Below, piece after piece: positions 5,148 through 35,935 of a DNA stretch of 46,542 nucleotides; positions within the stretch are counted from its first letter, which is position 1; every line of letters starts with the position of its first letter. Both the position numbers and the translations under genes were made by a program. The notes beneath the pieces are model-generated. The model searched no databases and had not been told where the DNA came from. It was given only the letters and a program-made list of their open reading frames with translations. Source of the DNA: Candidatus Saccharimonadota bacterium (lineage in GTDB: Bacteria; Patescibacteriota; Saccharimonadia; Saccharimonadales; Saccharimonadaceae); assembly GCA_016286785.1 (NCBI GenBank), contig JAEEUB010000005.1:1-46542 (forward strand), written 5' to 3'.

Positions 5148-5486
5148 ATGGGTAGAAAAAAGACAATTAACAATCCGCTAATCTTGTCGCTTGCGTCAAT
5201 TGGCATCTCTTTCGTATTCATTATTAGTTTAATAGTAGCTAAAGCGAATAAAATATTAACGTATTCGTATTGCGTAAACAATGGATTCCGAGAAGATGAA
5301 TGTTTTACGGAAGTTTTTCTTATGCCATTAATGGCTTTTGCTTTAAGCATTTCTATCCTGCTTACTTGTAAGGCAGTAAAATATAGAAAGTTACACGTCG
5401 ATGCAATTCCAGTGATTTCTATTTCGGCCTTACTGGTTTTGATTGATTTGATTGTTCTTGCTTGTATGTTCGTTAGTTATGAATAA
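5148..5486 (+). CDS. Small three-helix membrane protein, unknown
   Basis: 112 residues with three predicted membrane segments (about 12-31, 62-80 and 88-108) and a short loop holding two cysteines (YCVNNGFREDECF) between the first two. The basic N-terminus MGRKK suggests the first helix starts inside. No family recognised. A GATAAT box (5133-5138) lies nine bases before ATG with no Shine-Dalgarno, similar to other probable leaderless starts here. A weaker open frame on the opposite strand (5129-5350) is taken to be a shadow. The existence of this gene is supported by its coherent membrane topology, not by homology. Confidence 0.6.
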   Translation: MGRKKTINNPLILSLASIGISFVFIISLIVAKANKILTYSYCVNNGFREDECFTEVFLMPLMAFALSISILLTCKAVKYRKLHVDAIPVISISALLVLIDLIVLACMFVSYE

Positions 5487-5643
5487 TGTATCACTTGGCT
5501 TATTGTCGTTGTTCAATTGATTGTACATATATTGAAAAACATCAAAGGATTAGTTAACTTAAGTATATGATACTGCACCCTTGTGGTTTTTGCATTGATA
5601 GCGTTGGTTTATAAGATAGTATTGGCACGAATTGGCTAAACAT

Positions 5644-5952
5644 CAAAAAACCCTCAGGTAAGGGTGGGCATCACCTGAGGGTATTTTGGCCCTCTAACGC
5701 TTCTCTGTTTTATACCGGGGAGACCCCGGAGCGTAACCCACCTCACACAAATTGGGGCCCGCCGGTTAGAGGGATTGCTAAGCCTTCGAAATGGTCCTTT
5801 CTAAGTGGAGGTAATACTTATAACTTAAAACCATGAAGAAATTTTAAGCTCGAAAGGGTTTCAAAAGCTCGCAATTTCTGCTACACTGGAAGCAGTATAG
5901 CTGAAATTATAACTTATTTAGGTGCGGTGTGGGGTGTTTTTGTGCCCCAACT
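5644..5952 (-). ncRNA. Structured ncRNA of about 309 nt with own promoter and terminator, family not assigned
   Basis: No open frame fits here, but the minus strand has a consensus promoter (TTGACA, 17-base spacer, TGA-TATAAT) and an intrinsic terminator about 300 bases on. Visible helices: AGTTGGGGC at the 5' end (5952-5944) with GCCCCAATT (5758-5750); CCCTCTAAC (5773-5765) with GTTAGAGGG (5698-5690); a hairpin at 5873-5908 with a 9-bp inner stem and CTTC loop; a CCGGGG/CCCCGG hairpin at 5715-5729; and CTTAAAA/TTTTAAG near 5850-5825. The first two helices interleave, so together they form a large pseudoknot. RNase P, tmRNA, SRP and 6S signatures were looked for and not seen. The raiA-type RNA, which is pseudoknotted and often sits near DNA-uptake genes, is one candidate, suggested only by the dprA neighbour. 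Confidence 0.75.
5645..5682 (-). terminator. Intrinsic terminator of the ncRNA
   Basis: Ten-base-pair stem ACCCTCAGGT / ACCTGAGGGT (5682-5673 and 5659-5650 on the minus strand) followed by a run of Ts. The T-run is much better on the minus strand than on the plus strand, which fixes the direction of the ncRNA. Confidence 0.85.
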
Positions 5953-5958
5953 GAGTTA

Positions 5959-5987
5959 ATTATATCACACGGGAGAATTTATGTCAA
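5959..5987 (-). promoter_or_regulatory. Consensus promoter of the ncRNA
   Basis: Minus strand: TTGACA at 5987-5982, spacer of exactly 17 bases, TATAAT at 5964-5959 preceded by TGA (extended -10). Predicted transcription start near 5952. The -35 box overlaps the start codon of the divergent dprA gene, so dprA and the ncRNA share control DNA. Confidence 0.85.
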
Positions 5988-6907
5988 CACTTTTTACACA
6001 CTTTTTTACAAAATTCAATCAAATTGTACCCCTGGAGAGTAATTTTACAGAGGTGTTAGAATCTATTGCGCTTAAGCCTAAAATATTGTATTTTCATGGT
6101 AAATTGCCAGAAAATGTGTCAAAAAATGGTGTGACAAAGCGACCAAAGGTTGTAGCTATTGTGGGGTCTCGCCGCAATACACGTTACGGCGAGGAAATAG
6201 CCTACGAGATGGCCTACGAACTGGCAAAGAGAGGAGTAATAGTTGTTTCTGGGCTTGCGTATGGGATTGATTCAATCGCGCATAAGGGGGCGTTAGATGC
6301 GGATGGGTGCACTGTAGCGGTACTAGGTACTCCTATAGATCAGATTTATCCCAGAGCTCATGAAAAATTAGCAAAAGACATCATAGCCCAGGGCGGCGCA
6401 ATTATTAGTGAGCTAGAACCCGGGGCTAAGTTTTATCCTAAAACTAGTTTTTTAAAAAGAAATCGTATTATTGCGGGATTGTCTGATGCTGTAGTAATAG
6501 TTGAGGCGGCGGTTCGCTCTGGGTCTTTAAATACTGCGGCGCATGCCTTAGAGCAAGGAAAAGATGTGTTTGCGGTGCCTGGGAATATTACAAGTCCATA
6601 CTCTATGGGTTGCAATAAGCTAATTCGGCAGGGGGCTAGTCCGTATACCTGCTTAGATGATCTTCTTAGTGTTTTGTTCCCTGAAGAATTTGTTCGGCGA
6701 CATAACGAAGCTGCTTTAAAAGTGCTCGCGGCAGACACTAAAGAAGAAGCCGCAATTTTGCAGGCCCTATCGCGAGGGCTCAGGACGGGTGAAGAGATAA
6801 TAGAATTTACTCAGCTAAGTGCGCAAATTTTTAGTCAGTTTATTACTCTACTTGAAATTAAAGGGCAGGTGCGTGCTCTTGGTGGCAACCACTGGAGTTT
6901 AATGTGA
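5981..6907 (+). CDS. dprA: DNA-processing protein DprA
   Basis: 308 residues. DprA binds incoming single-stranded DNA during natural transformation and loads RecA. The Rossmann-like core is clear: VGSRRNTRYGEE (about 61-72), SGLAYGIDSIAHKGAL (about 90-105), FLKRNRIIAGLSDAVVIVEA (about 157-176) and SGSLNTAAHA. The C-terminal part (about 255-308) looks like the winged-helix domain found in many DprA proteins. A GGGAG site five bases before ATG marks the start. The start region overlaps the -35 box of the divergent ncRNA. The stop is TGA, which argues against TGA recoding in this genome. recA, its usual partner, is elsewhere in this window at 33584. Confidence 0.95.
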   Translation: MSTLFTHFFTKFNQIVPLESNFTEVLESIALKPKILYFHGKLPENVSKNGVTKRPKVVAIVGSRRNTRYGEEIAYEMAYELAKRGVIVVSGLAYGIDSIAHKGALDADGCTVAVLGTPIDQIYPRAHEKLAKDIIAQGGAIISELEPGAKFYPKTSFLKRNRIIAGLSDAVVIVEAAVRSGSLNTAAHALEQGKDVFAVPGNITSPYSMGCNKLIRQGASPYTCLDDLLSVLFPEEFVRRHNEAALKVLAADTKEEAAILQALSRGLRTGEEIIEFTQLSAQIFSQFITLLEIKGQVRALGGNHWSLM

Positions 6908-6956: not shown

Positions 6957-8183
6957 ATGAAAAGCCATACAAAAACTCTTATTCTAATACTATCTTTTAT
7001 TATGTCTTGTTTTCTTGGTATTAATTCAGCTTCTGCTCTAACCTACCGAGATAATCTAGATGTATCATTTACTTTTGATTCTTCTATTTCTGTATCATTA
7101 TCTTCAGATAATCTAACTATCTCTTCATTGTCTCCAGATACTTATGCAGATAGTAATATCGTTACAGTTACTACTTCAACCAATAATCCTAGCGGTTATA
7201 CTCTAACTGCTACAACTGGTAATAGTGAAACCTATACTAATACTAATCTAATTGATAGTACTAATATTTTTACTAGTCTAAGTACTAGTGATAGTATTAG
7301 CTCTATGTCTTCTGCTAATGCCTCTCAAAATGGTAGATGGGGATATTCATTCTCAACCAATGGTACTTCCTGGAAGAATGCTACTGGTGGTACTGGTTAT
7401 TCTGGTTTGCCATATTACACTGCATCAGGAGCAGAAATAGCAAAATCTACTACTAATGGTACTAGTAACGTACAATTTAAGATCGGTGCTAAAGCTAGCA
7501 CAACTCAATCTGCTGGCACTTATAAGAACGTCATTAACTTTATGGCTACTGCTAACCCTCCAGTAACTAGGCATTATACGGTGAATTATATTGATACGAG
7601 TGGAGAATCTGTTGAGAATATGCCAACTCAGCAGACCGGAATCGTGGATAATGATTATGTCGCTATATCCGATAATGTTCCGTATGTGGTCGACGTGTAT
7701 GACAAAGCTTATAATTTTACTGCATGGTGTACGGAATATGTATATCCAAATGAGCCAGAATGTTCTGGCGAATTCTACGATCCGGGCAATAATGTGCCGA
7801 TTCCTGATGGTACTAGCGACGTGGTAATCAATTTGTATACTTGGTGGGAGATATTATATGATTCTTTTAGTGTTGATGTATTAAATGACAGTGATGCCAG
7901 TGTATTGGCGGAAAGTGACATGACGAGCATAAACGTTGATCCAAATACTAGTGAAAGTGTTTCATTTAGCAGGACGGATTGGTGGGATGAATTTGACCCT
8001 AGAAGCGTAAGGATTACAGTTGAGCCACCATTATCGTGTTTGTCAACCTGGGAATGGAGTGCAGATATATTTGATAGTACGTATCAGCAAATAGGGACCG
8101 AGTCTGGATCGGGTTGGGGGCAATTCTACGTTGGTGCATCTCTCGATAACTACGAGGTTACAATTACTGGTAATTGTGTTTAG
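6957..8183 (+). CDS. Secreted surface protein with the shared N-terminal beta domain
   Basis: 408 residues. Signal peptide (MKSHTKTLILILSFIMSCFLG, cleavage probably after ASA). Residues of about 28-205 are Ser/Thr/Asn-rich and contain the motif series shared with three other proteins in this window: GYTLTA, WGYSF, FKIGAKA, then AGTYKNVINFMA. A second region (about 207-290) resembles an InlB/MucBP-like module (HYTVNYIDTSGE, then YNFTAWCTEY). The last about 110 residues are Trp- and Asp-rich with two cysteines. No LPxTG motif or C-terminal membrane helix is visible, so attachment is unknown. The 5' half uses AT-rich codons while the last third shifts toward GAT/GTG-type codons, which might mark a domain of different origin. 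Probably leaderless. Extracellular role inferred from the signal peptide. Confidence 0.8.
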   Translation: MKSHTKTLILILSFIMSCFLGINSASALTYRDNLDVSFTFDSSISVSLSSDNLTISSLSPDTYADSNIVTVTTSTNNPSGYTLTATTGNSETYTNTNLIDSTNIFTSLSTSDSISSMSSANASQNGRWGYSFSTNGTSWKNATGGTGYSGLPYYTASGAEIAKSTTNGTSNVQFKIGAKASTTQSAGTYKNVINFMATANPPVTRHYTVNYIDTSGESVENMPTQQTGIVDNDYVAISDNVPYVVDVYDKAYNFTAWCTEYVYPNEPECSGEFYDPGNNVPIPDGTSDVVINLYTWWEILYDSFSVDVLNDSDASVLAESDMTSINVDPNTSESVSFSRTDWWDEFDPRSVRITVEPPLSCLSTWEWSADIFDSTYQQIGTESGSGWGQFYVGASLDNYEVTITGNCV

Positions 8184-10293: not shown

Positions 10294-12197
10294 ATGTTAA
10301 GGGTCACACATCAAAATATGCACGCTTCATATATATATATATATATATATCAGTAATCTTATCTAGCCTCACCCTTCTTTCTGCCTCATTTCTTTCCTCT
10401 AGTACTACTTTTGCAGATGATTCTGTTGTAGACCAAGTCAATATCACCGTATCAGAATCCTGCTCTATGACGGGTGTTGGTATGGACTCCCATACTGCTA
10501 CTATTACCAACGGTGCTTATCAAGGAGATATCGGTACTACTACCATTAATGTTTTCTGCAACGATAACAGTGGTTTTGCAATCTATGCCATTGGCTTTAC
10601 AGGAGATCAATATACAGGAGAAGACCATACTAAGCTAATTGGCGCATCAAACGGAGGAAAGATTACTTCTGGCACAGCTACGTCAGGGAGCACATCTAAC
10701 TGGGCCATGAAACTAAATACGGTATCTAGCCCTACTCCAGCCTACCCTATTACTCTAGATAATGGCTTCGGGGGCTACAGTACTGTACCAGATACATACA
10801 CTAAAGTAGCTCATAGAGACGCTGGTACGGATGTAGGCACCAATGCGGAGGGCTCAACTCTAACAACGACTTATGCTGCCTTTATGTCCGGCACTCAGGC
10901 TGCAGATACTTATACTGGTAAGGTGAAGTATACATTAGTGCATCCATCAGCTGAAACCCCATTAGCTCCTCAACCCACGACAGCAGGATACATTAATTAT
11001 TATGCTAATGCATCTACAGCAGAAGGTACTATGGGTAGACAATCAGCCAGTGACGGTAATACCGTAACCTTATTTGCTTCTAACTTCTCTAGGGATGGCT
11101 ATGGTTTTGCTGGCTGGTCTGATGCATTTGACTATACCACTAATCCCAACGCTAACTTCTATGGCCCAAATGAAGACATAGTAGTACCAGAAGGCACTTC
11201 AGCTAATGGTTTAGCCTTATATGCTGTCTGGATTAAATCTGAAGGTAACTTCCAAGATTCTACTAAGGTAGCCCAACTCTGTGGTATTGGTGGTACTGGA
11301 GGAAGCCTAATTGCTGCTACCTATAATAATGAGGATGACGTCGATGAATCTACTTGGTCTATCACTGCGAGACTCTCTAGTATTTCCGCTCTAACTGATG
11401 CAAGAGATAACCAAACCTATGCTATCGCCAGATTAACTGATGGTAAATGTTGGATGATAGAAAACTTGAGACTCGCTGATACCCATAAGGAGGGGAATAA
11501 TACCGTAGCTACAATTCTAACTACAAGCAATACCAATAACCCATTAAACGATGGCACAAACGTCACATTGAAGTATAATTATGTAGATGCTACAACTTAT
11601 CCGACTCTTTCTGCTACTAGTTCTGATGCTACTAGCTGGTGCACTACTAACTCAGCAGCATGCGATGATCAGTCTAGACTTAGAACTGATAATGCAGCTA
11701 ATCGCGCATCATACCAAACAACTGACAGCATGTCCACTAGCGCCAATCTATATTCCTATGGCAACTACTACAACTGGTATTCTGCTACAGCGGGTAATGG
11801 GACATATAGTGGATCTAGCGGTAATACAGCAGGTGACTTATGCCCAGCTGGTTGGCATCTACCTACCGGTACTGGTTATGGGGAATTTGGACTACTTAGT
11901 AATAGTTTGGGCGGATACCAGAATAATGGTGTGGCTCAAACCATGAATAGCTCTACTAACCCAACAGGAGCCATCATGTCTAAAAGAGAGAGGCATTTTC
12001 CAAATAACATTCTTTACTCGGGCAACGTGAATGGTGCTTCTCTTAACGATCGAGGTAGCTACGGCTACTACTGGTCCTCCACGGCGTTCTATAGCAACAA
12101 CGCCTACTACCTGAGCCTCAACTCCTCGTACGTCTACCCAAGTACGCTCAACTACAAGTACAACGGAAGGACACTGCGTTGCTTAGCTAGCACTTAG
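10294..12197 (+). CDS. FISUMP-domain surface protein, out of frame at an (AT)11 tract (phase-variable candidate)
   Basis: From the promoter-matched ATG at 10294 the frame enters an (AT)11 tract and stops at 10354-10356. The long frame begins right behind the tract. Without a start codon it reads a hydrophobic stretch (SVILSSLTLLSASFL, then SSSTTFADD), which is the rest of a signal peptide. One AT unit fewer joins both parts. In this assembly only an internal ATG at 10467 opens the body (576 residues), which would lack a signal peptide. The body has the shared beta domain (NWAMK, AADTYTGKVKYT), a Flg_new-like repeat (about 173-250 from 10467; YGFAGWSDAFD, ALYAVW), and a C-terminal Fibrobacter-succinogenes-type (FISUMP) domain (YAIARLTDGKCWMIENL, GNYYNWYSATAG, CPAGWHLPTG, YWSS, ending LRC). 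FISUMP domains are known retroelement targets. Confidence 0.75.
10329..10350. repeat. (AT)11 dinucleotide tract in the signal-peptide codons
   Basis: Eleven perfect AT units lie between the likely start codon at 10294 and the long open frame. Dinucleotide tracts change length by slipped-strand mispairing; loss of one unit or gain of two would restore the frame, and other changes keep it closed. Read in frame it codes alternating Tyr-Ile, which is compatible with a signal-peptide core. Confidence 0.85.
12063..12182 (+). other. Candidate DGR variable region at the 3' end of the FISUMP gene
   Basis: Starting at the codons for GYYWSSTAFYSNNAYY, codon choice changes sharply. All five Asn codons are AAC and eight of nine Tyr codons are TAC, with TCC, CTC, GTC and ACG common, whereas the upstream body prefers T- or A-ending codons. 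The stretch is dense in Asn, Tyr and Ser and ends in a conserved RTLRC. This is the expected look of a diversity-generating-retroelement target, where adenines of a template repeat (AAC/TAC codons) are mutagenised. No template repeat or reverse transcriptase is in this window. Confidence 0.5.
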
Positions 12198-34874: not shown

Positions 34875-35840
34875 TTATCTATCCCAGTCAAAGCCTTCGC
34901 CGTAATGGCCGTATCTTGCCGTTTGCTCGTAGATTGGGCGTTTTAGGTCTAAAAACTTAATAATGCCGCGTGGCGTTAAGTCGTAGCCTTCGATTTCTTC
35001 TGGTTTGCCGTCTACGATGACGGTTTTTTCTAGTGGCTCAGCTTTGCCGATGGCGTAGGCCAGGCGCACTAATACTTCGTGAGCTTTGCGCTTTCTTAAA
35101 TAGTCTACTGCGATTTTTCTTGCCATGTAGGCAGCGGAGCGGTCTACTTTGGACGGATCTTTACCAGAATAACAGCCACCGCCAATCGCAACACGCGGGC
35201 CGTAGTTATCTACGATTAACTTGCGTCCGGTAAGGCCCGTATCGGCATCAAAGCCGCCTTGGTTCCAGTCTCCAGCTGGGTTCATATGAAGTTCTAGGCG
35301 GCCAGTAGGCCCTTCTTTTTCTATGTATTCGCGAACTAGCTTTTCTAGTTCTTCTTTTGGAACATTTTGGAAACTTGCCACAATTGAGTCTATTGTACCG
35401 TCTGGTGCGATGGTGACTTGGGTTTTACCATCATATGGGTATTTGTTATAAATATATTGATTTAGGCGGCGCGATAAAACTACTTCGCGAGGCAAGAGCT
35501 CGTTCGTTTCGTCACAAGCGTAACCAATCATGATTCCCTGATCGCCGGCTCCTCCGGTATCTACGCCCTGAGCGATTTCTGGGGATTGTTTAACGATTTT
35601 AGTGTGGACTTCGGTGTTTTCTCCGGCTAGCCTTTTAACGATTTCTTCGATATTGATGTCGTTTGCGGTGGATGTGATTTCTCCGGTTACAAAAACTACG
35701 CCGTGGCCGCCGCAAGTTTCGGCAGCTACTCTAGCATTCGGGTCTTTAGCTAGATACGCATCCAAAATAGCATCGCTAATTTGGTCACATAGTTTGTCTG
35801 GGTGTTTTGGAGAAACGCTCTCCGCGGTTCGATAGAACAT
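34875..35840 (-). CDS. metK: S-adenosylmethionine synthetase, compact form
   Basis: 321 residues; typical MetK proteins have about 380-400. It makes S-adenosylmethionine from methionine and ATP. Key motifs are kept: K12-HPDK (H13), GEITST, the GAGDQGIMIGYACDET loop, GLTGRKLIVDNYG, GGGCYSGKDPSKVDRSAAYMAR, and YAIGKAEPL near the end; it ends ETARYGHYGEGFDW-like (QTARYGHYG). Missing stretches are in N-terminal and central loops, not in active-site motifs, so it should be active. AGAAAGGA lies within the upstream SAM riboswitch, so translation is probably turned off by SAM. Confidence 0.95.
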   Translation of the reverse strand: MFYRTAESVSPKHPDKLCDQISDAILDAYLAKDPNARVAAETCGGHGVVFVTGEITSTANDINIEEIVKRLAGENTEVHTKIVKQSPEIAQGVDTGGAGDQGIMIGYACDETNELLPREVVLSRRLNQYIYNKYPYDGKTQVTIAPDGTIDSIVASFQNVPKEELEKLVREYIEKEGPTGRLELHMNPAGDWNQGGFDADTGLTGRKLIVDNYGPRVAIGGGCYSGKDPSKVDRSAAYMARKIAVDYLRKRKAHEVLVRLAYAIGKAEPLEKTVIVDGKPEEIEGYDLTPRGIIKFLDLKRPIYEQTARYGHYGEGFDWDR

Positions 35841-35935
35841 ATCTTTCCTTTCTGGTCGGATTTACCACCTTGCATGAGTAGGTTGGCAGGAAGTCGTAGG
35901 GCCGTTCCCTCGTTCCTTCTTGATATTAATATTGC
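35839..35935 (-). promoter_or_regulatory. SAM-I-type riboswitch overlapping the metK ribosome binding site and start codon
   Basis: Conserved SAM-I clan elements read in order on the minus strand: ATATCAAGA, GAGGGAACGGCCC, a P2 return strand CTTCCT, GCCAACC, a short P3, AAGGTGGTAAATCC and AAAGATAT. P1 pairs ATATC (35926-35922) with GATAT (35843-35839); that strand holds the AT of the start codon. The Shine-Dalgarno AGAAAGGA lies in the P4 position. The transcript should start near 35935 (TATAAT at 35947-35942), so the whole 95-base leader is aptamer with no separate expression platform. Control at translation is inferred. Confidence 0.8.

Follow-up and report, generated by a model that had tools for sequence, protein, structure and literature searches.

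Structure of the locus

We have studied a stretch of 46,542 nucleotides from a contig of Candidatus Saccharimonadota, which will be called the window. In its minus strand, between the divergent gene dprA and a convergent ORF of 112 aa, there is a noncoding stretch of about 308 nt (Table 1). It is practically certain that it is a gene for a structured RNA. The relatives agree with the preliminary description of this DNA, which had presented it as an unassigned structured RNA with a promoter and a terminator of its own, in divergent orientation to dprA. The TTGACA-17-TATAAT promoter proposed there was verified, and its -10 box is preceded by TG. The overlap of the -35 box with the dprA start codon is confirmed by the coordinates, since the ATG is found in positions 5981–5983. 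The hairpin and U run of the terminator are also as described. The start of the gene, position 5952, is an estimate from the -10 box.

A promoter of the form TTGAC-17-TAnnnT, placed 130–260 nt upstream of the core, is found in 45 of 50 homologues, compared with 0.48% in shuffled sequences. This set of 50, also used below to count CCUCC, core partners, loop complementarity and downstream genes, consists of the 44 rows of alignment A6 and six further loci. Alignment A6 left out some long or hard-to-place loci (L024, L034, L086, L254, L261, L272 and L273), three loci for which automatic extraction failed (L080, L239 and L253), and also L265 and L269. Alignments A1 and A2 left out L016 and L020 (truncated; near-identical to L019), and A4 left out the truncated L111. 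The stretch itself has a folding energy of -107.9 kcal/mol, better than all of 100 shuffled sequences (z = -5.1).

Table 1. Positions of the features found in and around the RNA gene, numbered in the window
Feature	Position	Strand	Evidence or remarks
112-aa ORF, convergent, on the far side of the RNA gene	5148–5486	+	
Structured noncoding RNA gene, about 308 nt	5645–5952	-	Homologues, covariation, matches of models R1, R2 and R3
Intrinsic terminator, hairpin 5682–5650 and U run to 5645	5645–5682	-	Stem covaries
Terminator loop UGCCCACCC	5670–5662	-	CCCACC (5668–5663) complementary to GGUGGG (5742–5737)
Core helix CCCUCUAAC/GUUAGAGGG, 5773–5765 with 5698–5690	5690–5773	-	In the genus, 99.0% of the cells are paired and 4 of the 9 pairs have double changes
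CCGGG hairpin	5702–5729	-	Possible H-type pseudoknot of the loop with the adjoining downstream stretch
Internal hairpin GUGA-[GGUGGG]-UUAC, loop 5742–5737	5733–5746	-	Relatives
P2, long helix, 5875–5860 with 5790–5774	5774–5875	-	16 pairs, 100% of cells paired
C-rich hairpin AAGU-AUUACCUCC-ACUU, loop 5815–5807 ending in CCUCC	5803–5819	-	Homologues
P1, local 5' hairpin, 5948–5944 with 5935–5931	5931–5948	-	5 of 5 pairs double-changed, 83.1% of cells paired
Promoter, TTGACA 5987–5982, 17-nt spacer, TATAAT 5964–5959	5959–5987	-	12 of 12 positions match the consensus
dprA, divergent neighbour	5981–6907	+	PF02481 (234 bits), DprA_WH

Conservation of the fold

The fold that we have drawn has eight helices and 55 base pairs. 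In 32 full-length homologues 97.8% of its 1749 cells are paired and 22 of the 55 pairs show double changes; none of 500 shuffles equals this fold, and controls in which the strands were slid pair in 40–47%. Deeper sets of homologues gave 98.2% of paired cells with double changes in 11 of 19 pairs, and 97.0% with 15 of 20. Six pairs of P2 are double-changed among the 32 sequences, as are two of the four pairs of the internal hairpin in alignment A4. The core helix shows flips from C-G to G-C throughout the order.

Two long interleaved helices, which together would form a large pseudoknot, had been proposed for this RNA. One of them is the core helix, which covaries and belongs to the best-supported helices of the fold. 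The other one, 5952–5944 with 5758–5750, is present in the sequence of the window but is broken in the relatives: 78.5% of its cells are paired, pair 5 is broken in 24 of the 32 homologues and only one pair has double changes. Its 5' strand forms instead the local hairpin P1. The RNA appears to be pseudoknotted, as was claimed, but not through that interleaved pair; other pairings are better candidates.

The helix is probably replaced by a pseudoknot between the CCCACC of the terminator loop and a GGUGGG or GGGUGG in the core. The letters of this loop are constant in nearly all the loci which we have read. In the genus the kissing pairing of CCCACC with GGUGGG is found in 99% of the cells and never covaries. 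Throughout the order either GGUGGG or GGGUGG is present in 50 of 50 cores, while 14% per core would be expected by chance; this count was made without splitting by site, on related homologues which are not independent draws. The partner occupies the internal site, a second one next to the 3' strand of the core helix, or both. Its site moves while a partner stays available, which favours a real contact. The terminator loop also shows a complementarity above chance to the remainder of its own RNA (mean z -1.36, n = 50), in a test that omitted part of the 3' core and may understate the contact where GGGUGG lies there. The contact is not universal, since L262 and L266, two of the four members that were read from other orders, have no CCACCC terminator loop.

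A small H-type pseudoknot, 5723–5720 with 5705–5702, is supported in the genus: the mean longest Watson-Crick run is 3.76, compared with 2.97 ± 0.12 when partners are swapped between the 33 sequences, and 0 of 500 swaps reach the observed value. In two loci the region of the terminator hairpin has extra copies downstream of the RNA gene: L012 (genome G007, positions 1878–1927 and 2611–2650) and L015 (1057–1077).

Distribution in the class

DNA homologues were found in 33 of the 36 genomes of the genus examined, in 34 places, with E values of 2.3e-29 or better. The three genomes without them are G008 (59% complete), G022 (82% complete) and G027. In the 14 closest relatives the RNA is 84–91% identical, compared with 53–68% for the DprA protein; in one relative, for example, the DNA of the RNA gene has 91% identity and DprA 62%.

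We have used three covariance models. Model R1 detects the RNA in 146 of 392 genomes of the order. Model R2, prepared from 47 divergent members, finds it in 260 of the 392 genomes and in 87 of 156 genera; these counts understate the presence of the RNA, since R2 missed eight genomes of the order in which it is found by eye. Model R3 detects the RNA in 320 of the 352 genomes of the class, or in 304 of 328 if only those of good quality are considered, and in 120 of 143 genera, counts which include the training genomes of R3 and, with the threshold of E 0.01 per genome, about 3–4 expected chance matches. The class is drawn more narrowly in the NCBI taxonomy than in the grouping used here. The matches include some families of other orders within the class, and they are nearly always single: two are listed in 12 of the 320 positive genomes, and in one genome (G036, locus L265) the two look like a single RNA split in two. 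Manual reading of four genomes from other orders (L262, L263, L266 and L271; 18–30 bits, filters off) showed the same layout beside dprA.

Of 370 genomes from the whole phylum 335 lie outside the class, and no believable match was found in them. One match there (G546, 22.8 bits) was rejected: it is antisense inside an ORF of 393 aa and has neither promoter nor CCUCC. A pattern scan of contigs gave at least 119 stretches; among the 80 of them that are listed, the titles are Saccharibacteria, TM7, Nanosyncoccus or Saccharimonadia, except for two. A match in Nocardioides was rejected: it has 12 bits with R1 and was judged to be coding from its GC-rich context alone. A metagenome-assembled genome titled Candidatus Nomurabacteria carries the RNA (L184, 1629–1747, 57 bits), which may correspond to a mislabelled bin or to a true transfer. 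In viral contigs the RNA was not found.

As judged from genome sequences, these searches show that the RNA is present throughout the class in the Saccharibacteria/TM7 lineage, the class of Candidatus Nanosyncoccus, with about one copy per genome. Its distribution in the class equals that of a housekeeping RNA, and the genomes concerned are tiny and have lost much else. Neither this range nor the CCUCC loop treated below had been noticed in the preliminary description. Few RNA families are retained by an entire bacterial class, and those whose function is not understood, raiA and OLE, have become model problems.

The C-rich hairpin and a possible function

The most widely kept unpaired element of the RNA is the CCUCC loop of the C-rich hairpin. 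It has the unpaired C-rich loop complementary to Shine-Dalgarno (SD) sites that is typical of UCCC-motif RNAs: 49 of the 50 homologues have CCUCC, directly adjoining a stem that remains paired although its sequence changes, and the hairpin covaries in most of them. An automatic test finds a stem of at least 4 bp in 43 of the 50, with the outer pairs paired above shuffles; one of the seven homologues without such a stem also has no CCUCC. The members of other orders retain CCCUCC. We take CCUCC to be an anti-Shine-Dalgarno-like sequence, which resembles the 3' end of 16S rRNA in general. Docking of the loop on its own RNA is not above chance (mean z -0.45, n = 49), so that the loop would be free to act in trans. 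The cores of some deep-branching members (L246, L247, L249, L264 and L273) share a further conserved segment similar to UUAUGGAGUUUUGG; its UGGAG might base-pair with CUCCA in the C-rich loop.

A loose SD is present in 13 of the 35 ORFs of the window. Strong complementarity to the CCUCC loop (-6 kcal/mol or better) is found in 14% of them, compared with 5% of random sites, a weak enrichment which any SD would give. By eye, nine of the 35 ORFs have a TATAAT no more than 22 nt before the start codon and so resemble leaderless genes; examples are the starts at 6957, 8237, 15233, 19260 and 40426.

Similar loops are found in known regulators. LhrC of Listeria has a C-rich hairpin loop complementary to SD sites. 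UCCC-motif regulatory RNAs are generally narrow in range, whereas the RNA described here is found in a whole class and has a conserved pseudoknotted core. The Rsa RNAs and RNAIII of Staphylococcus aureus also carry a C-rich sequence complementary to SD sites in a hairpin loop, and in excerpts of PMC3861533 the binding of such loops to SD sites in Gram-positive RNAs is given as established.

The interpretation that we propose, with a chance approaching one half, is that of a trans-acting structured RNA with a core locked by the terminator loop and a CCUCC loop that pairs with SD sites. Docking of CCCACC onto GGUGGG would lock the core around its helix, and would therefore make the terminator a part of the fold. 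The separate hairpin would expose its ACC(C)UCC loop, which would base-pair with the GGAGG-type SD sites of mRNAs and modulate the initiation of translation, as C-rich loops of some Gram-positive regulatory RNAs do. In genomes where SD sites are sparse, the RNA would separate SD-led from leaderless messages. We suggest only tentatively that SD pairing is the main activity of the RNA. Such a regulator of translation is favoured because the CCUCC loop is widely kept and free, and because known C-rich loops bind SD sites. The loop could instead bind a protein or dock on an RNA. It is also conceivable, but rather unlikely, that we deal with a class-wide, housekeeping-like RNA that mimics the 3' tail of 16S rRNA, as a decoy or competitor of the ribosomal anti-Shine-Dalgarno. 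If this were true, it would tune the balance of SD-led and leaderless translation in ultra-small epibionts. Some Saccharibacteria can be mutated by natural transformation (excerpts of PMC10633639), which would allow a deletion of the RNA gene and a direct test of its part in growth, host attachment or translation. The same paper does not list dprA as a fitness gene in the transposon-insertion data of Southlakia epibionticum.

Comparison with known RNA families

At this locus no family of Rfam 15 reaches its cut-off in an Infernal search. With permissive thresholds the window and the divergent loci gave only scores at the level of chance; the best one in the window is atoC, with 19.2 bits and a cut-off of 50. 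Neither 20 divergent loci nor 20 loci mostly from deeper branches contain an Rfam match. Nothing on this RNA was found in a literature search that covered subscription papers and preprints very little, and excerpts from the main text of PMC8040213, with its thousands of candidate RNAs, do not name the lineage. We consider the family to be new, while its mechanism may prove to be of a known kind.

An alternative that deserves attention, although we find it somewhat doubtful, is an ornate RNA similar to raiA/ModT or OLE: a compact monomer, a scaffold for an RNP or a ribozyme, in which the fold and its protein partners act and not the pairing with mRNA. According to excerpts of PMC11706538 and PMC11751092, raiA/ModT is also a single-copy structured RNA, a few hundred nt long, which has pseudoknots, invariant unpaired letters and a strong promoter, and no molecular function has been assigned to it either. 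Its known three-dimensional fold has eight helices and two defined pseudoknots. It also has a competence gene as a neighbour: in 74% of cases raiA adjoins comFC (excerpts of PMC11706538). Conserved letters beyond the C-rich loop are also in favour of such an RNA. However raiA has a length of about 205–210 nt, shorter than the 308 nt found here, and occurs in Bacillota and Actinomycetota instead of Saccharibacteria. Its model (RF03072, gathering threshold 101.3 bits) has no match up to E 10 in the source genome, and it is absent among the matches up to E 10 in positions 5500–6150 of the window and in 20 divergent loci. Furthermore, no single-stranded element is kept as widely as the short C-rich loop, and such loops are typical of pairing seeds. 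OLE, ROOL and GOLLD are also ornate RNAs with complex folds and a function at most partly known (excerpts of PMC12286853), but they are larger, and none of them has an Rfam match here.

Genomic setting and other alternatives

All 34 loci of the genus have dprA as the adjacent, divergent gene, as do 33 of 40 divergent loci; the divergent arrangement is also present in the four members of other orders mentioned above. With a -35 box on the dprA start codon, this layout might correspond to a local regulator of dprA-topA, in which transcription from the promoter interferes with dprA. We find this improbable: the whole fold of the RNA is kept and not the promoter alone, the RNA is present in six genomes where dprA was not detected (G136, G364, G235 with one contig, G052, G053 and G065), and in five others which bear the RNA (G167, G173, G140, G338 and G334) dprA is found elsewhere. 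These cases indicate that the link with dprA is positional more than functional. Both RNA and dprA are absent from G027 and G319, which belong to the genus.

It is very improbable that we deal with a highly divergent SRP RNA or 6S RNA, a universal RNA which would otherwise be missing here. In the own genome (G000, 97% complete) the small SRP RNA RF00169 gives no match at E 10, and the best match of 6S RNA (RF00013) has just 8.9 bits, with a cut-off of 46.4 bits, and lies elsewhere. However neither family was matched in 41 sources scanned with all of Rfam, and the hairpin architecture of 6S and SRP RNA is presumably unlike the covarying fold found here. RNase P (235 bits) and tmRNA (86 bits), which are also single-copy structured RNA genes, are both located elsewhere in the genome, on contig C19. 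The absence of signatures of these four RNAs noticed earlier is thus borne out: none of them matches at this place.

A compact fold which ends in a terminator could also be a cis-acting leader of the downstream gene, such as a riboswitch, an idea that is hardly credible since the data already contradict it. Of the 50 homologues, 32 have a convergent next gene, 17 have a co-directional one and one has none. The downstream proteins fall into many unrelated clusters, so that there is no co-directional gene of a constant kind; the largest cluster, 17 of 49, is the convergent pth (peptidyl-tRNA hydrolase), two of the 17 having been checked against Pfam. With a downstream gene that differs between loci and is convergent in most of them, the RNA has the features of a free-standing gene, and it is very likely to act in trans.

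Finally, short ORFs occur by chance, but a small protein gene or a DNA element has practically no probability and is contradicted by the strand-specific compensatory changes and by the absence of any long ORF, already described; in 34 homologues the longest closed ORF in the RNA strand has variable lengths between 17 and 68 aa.

The window has two other features of interest. A SAM riboswitch (RF00162, 55.9 bits) is found in the minus strand at 35836–35929, just upstream of the ORF 34875–35840. The ORF 10467–12197 has Fib_succ_major and List_Bact_rpt (Flg_new) domains and is likely to code for a surface protein.
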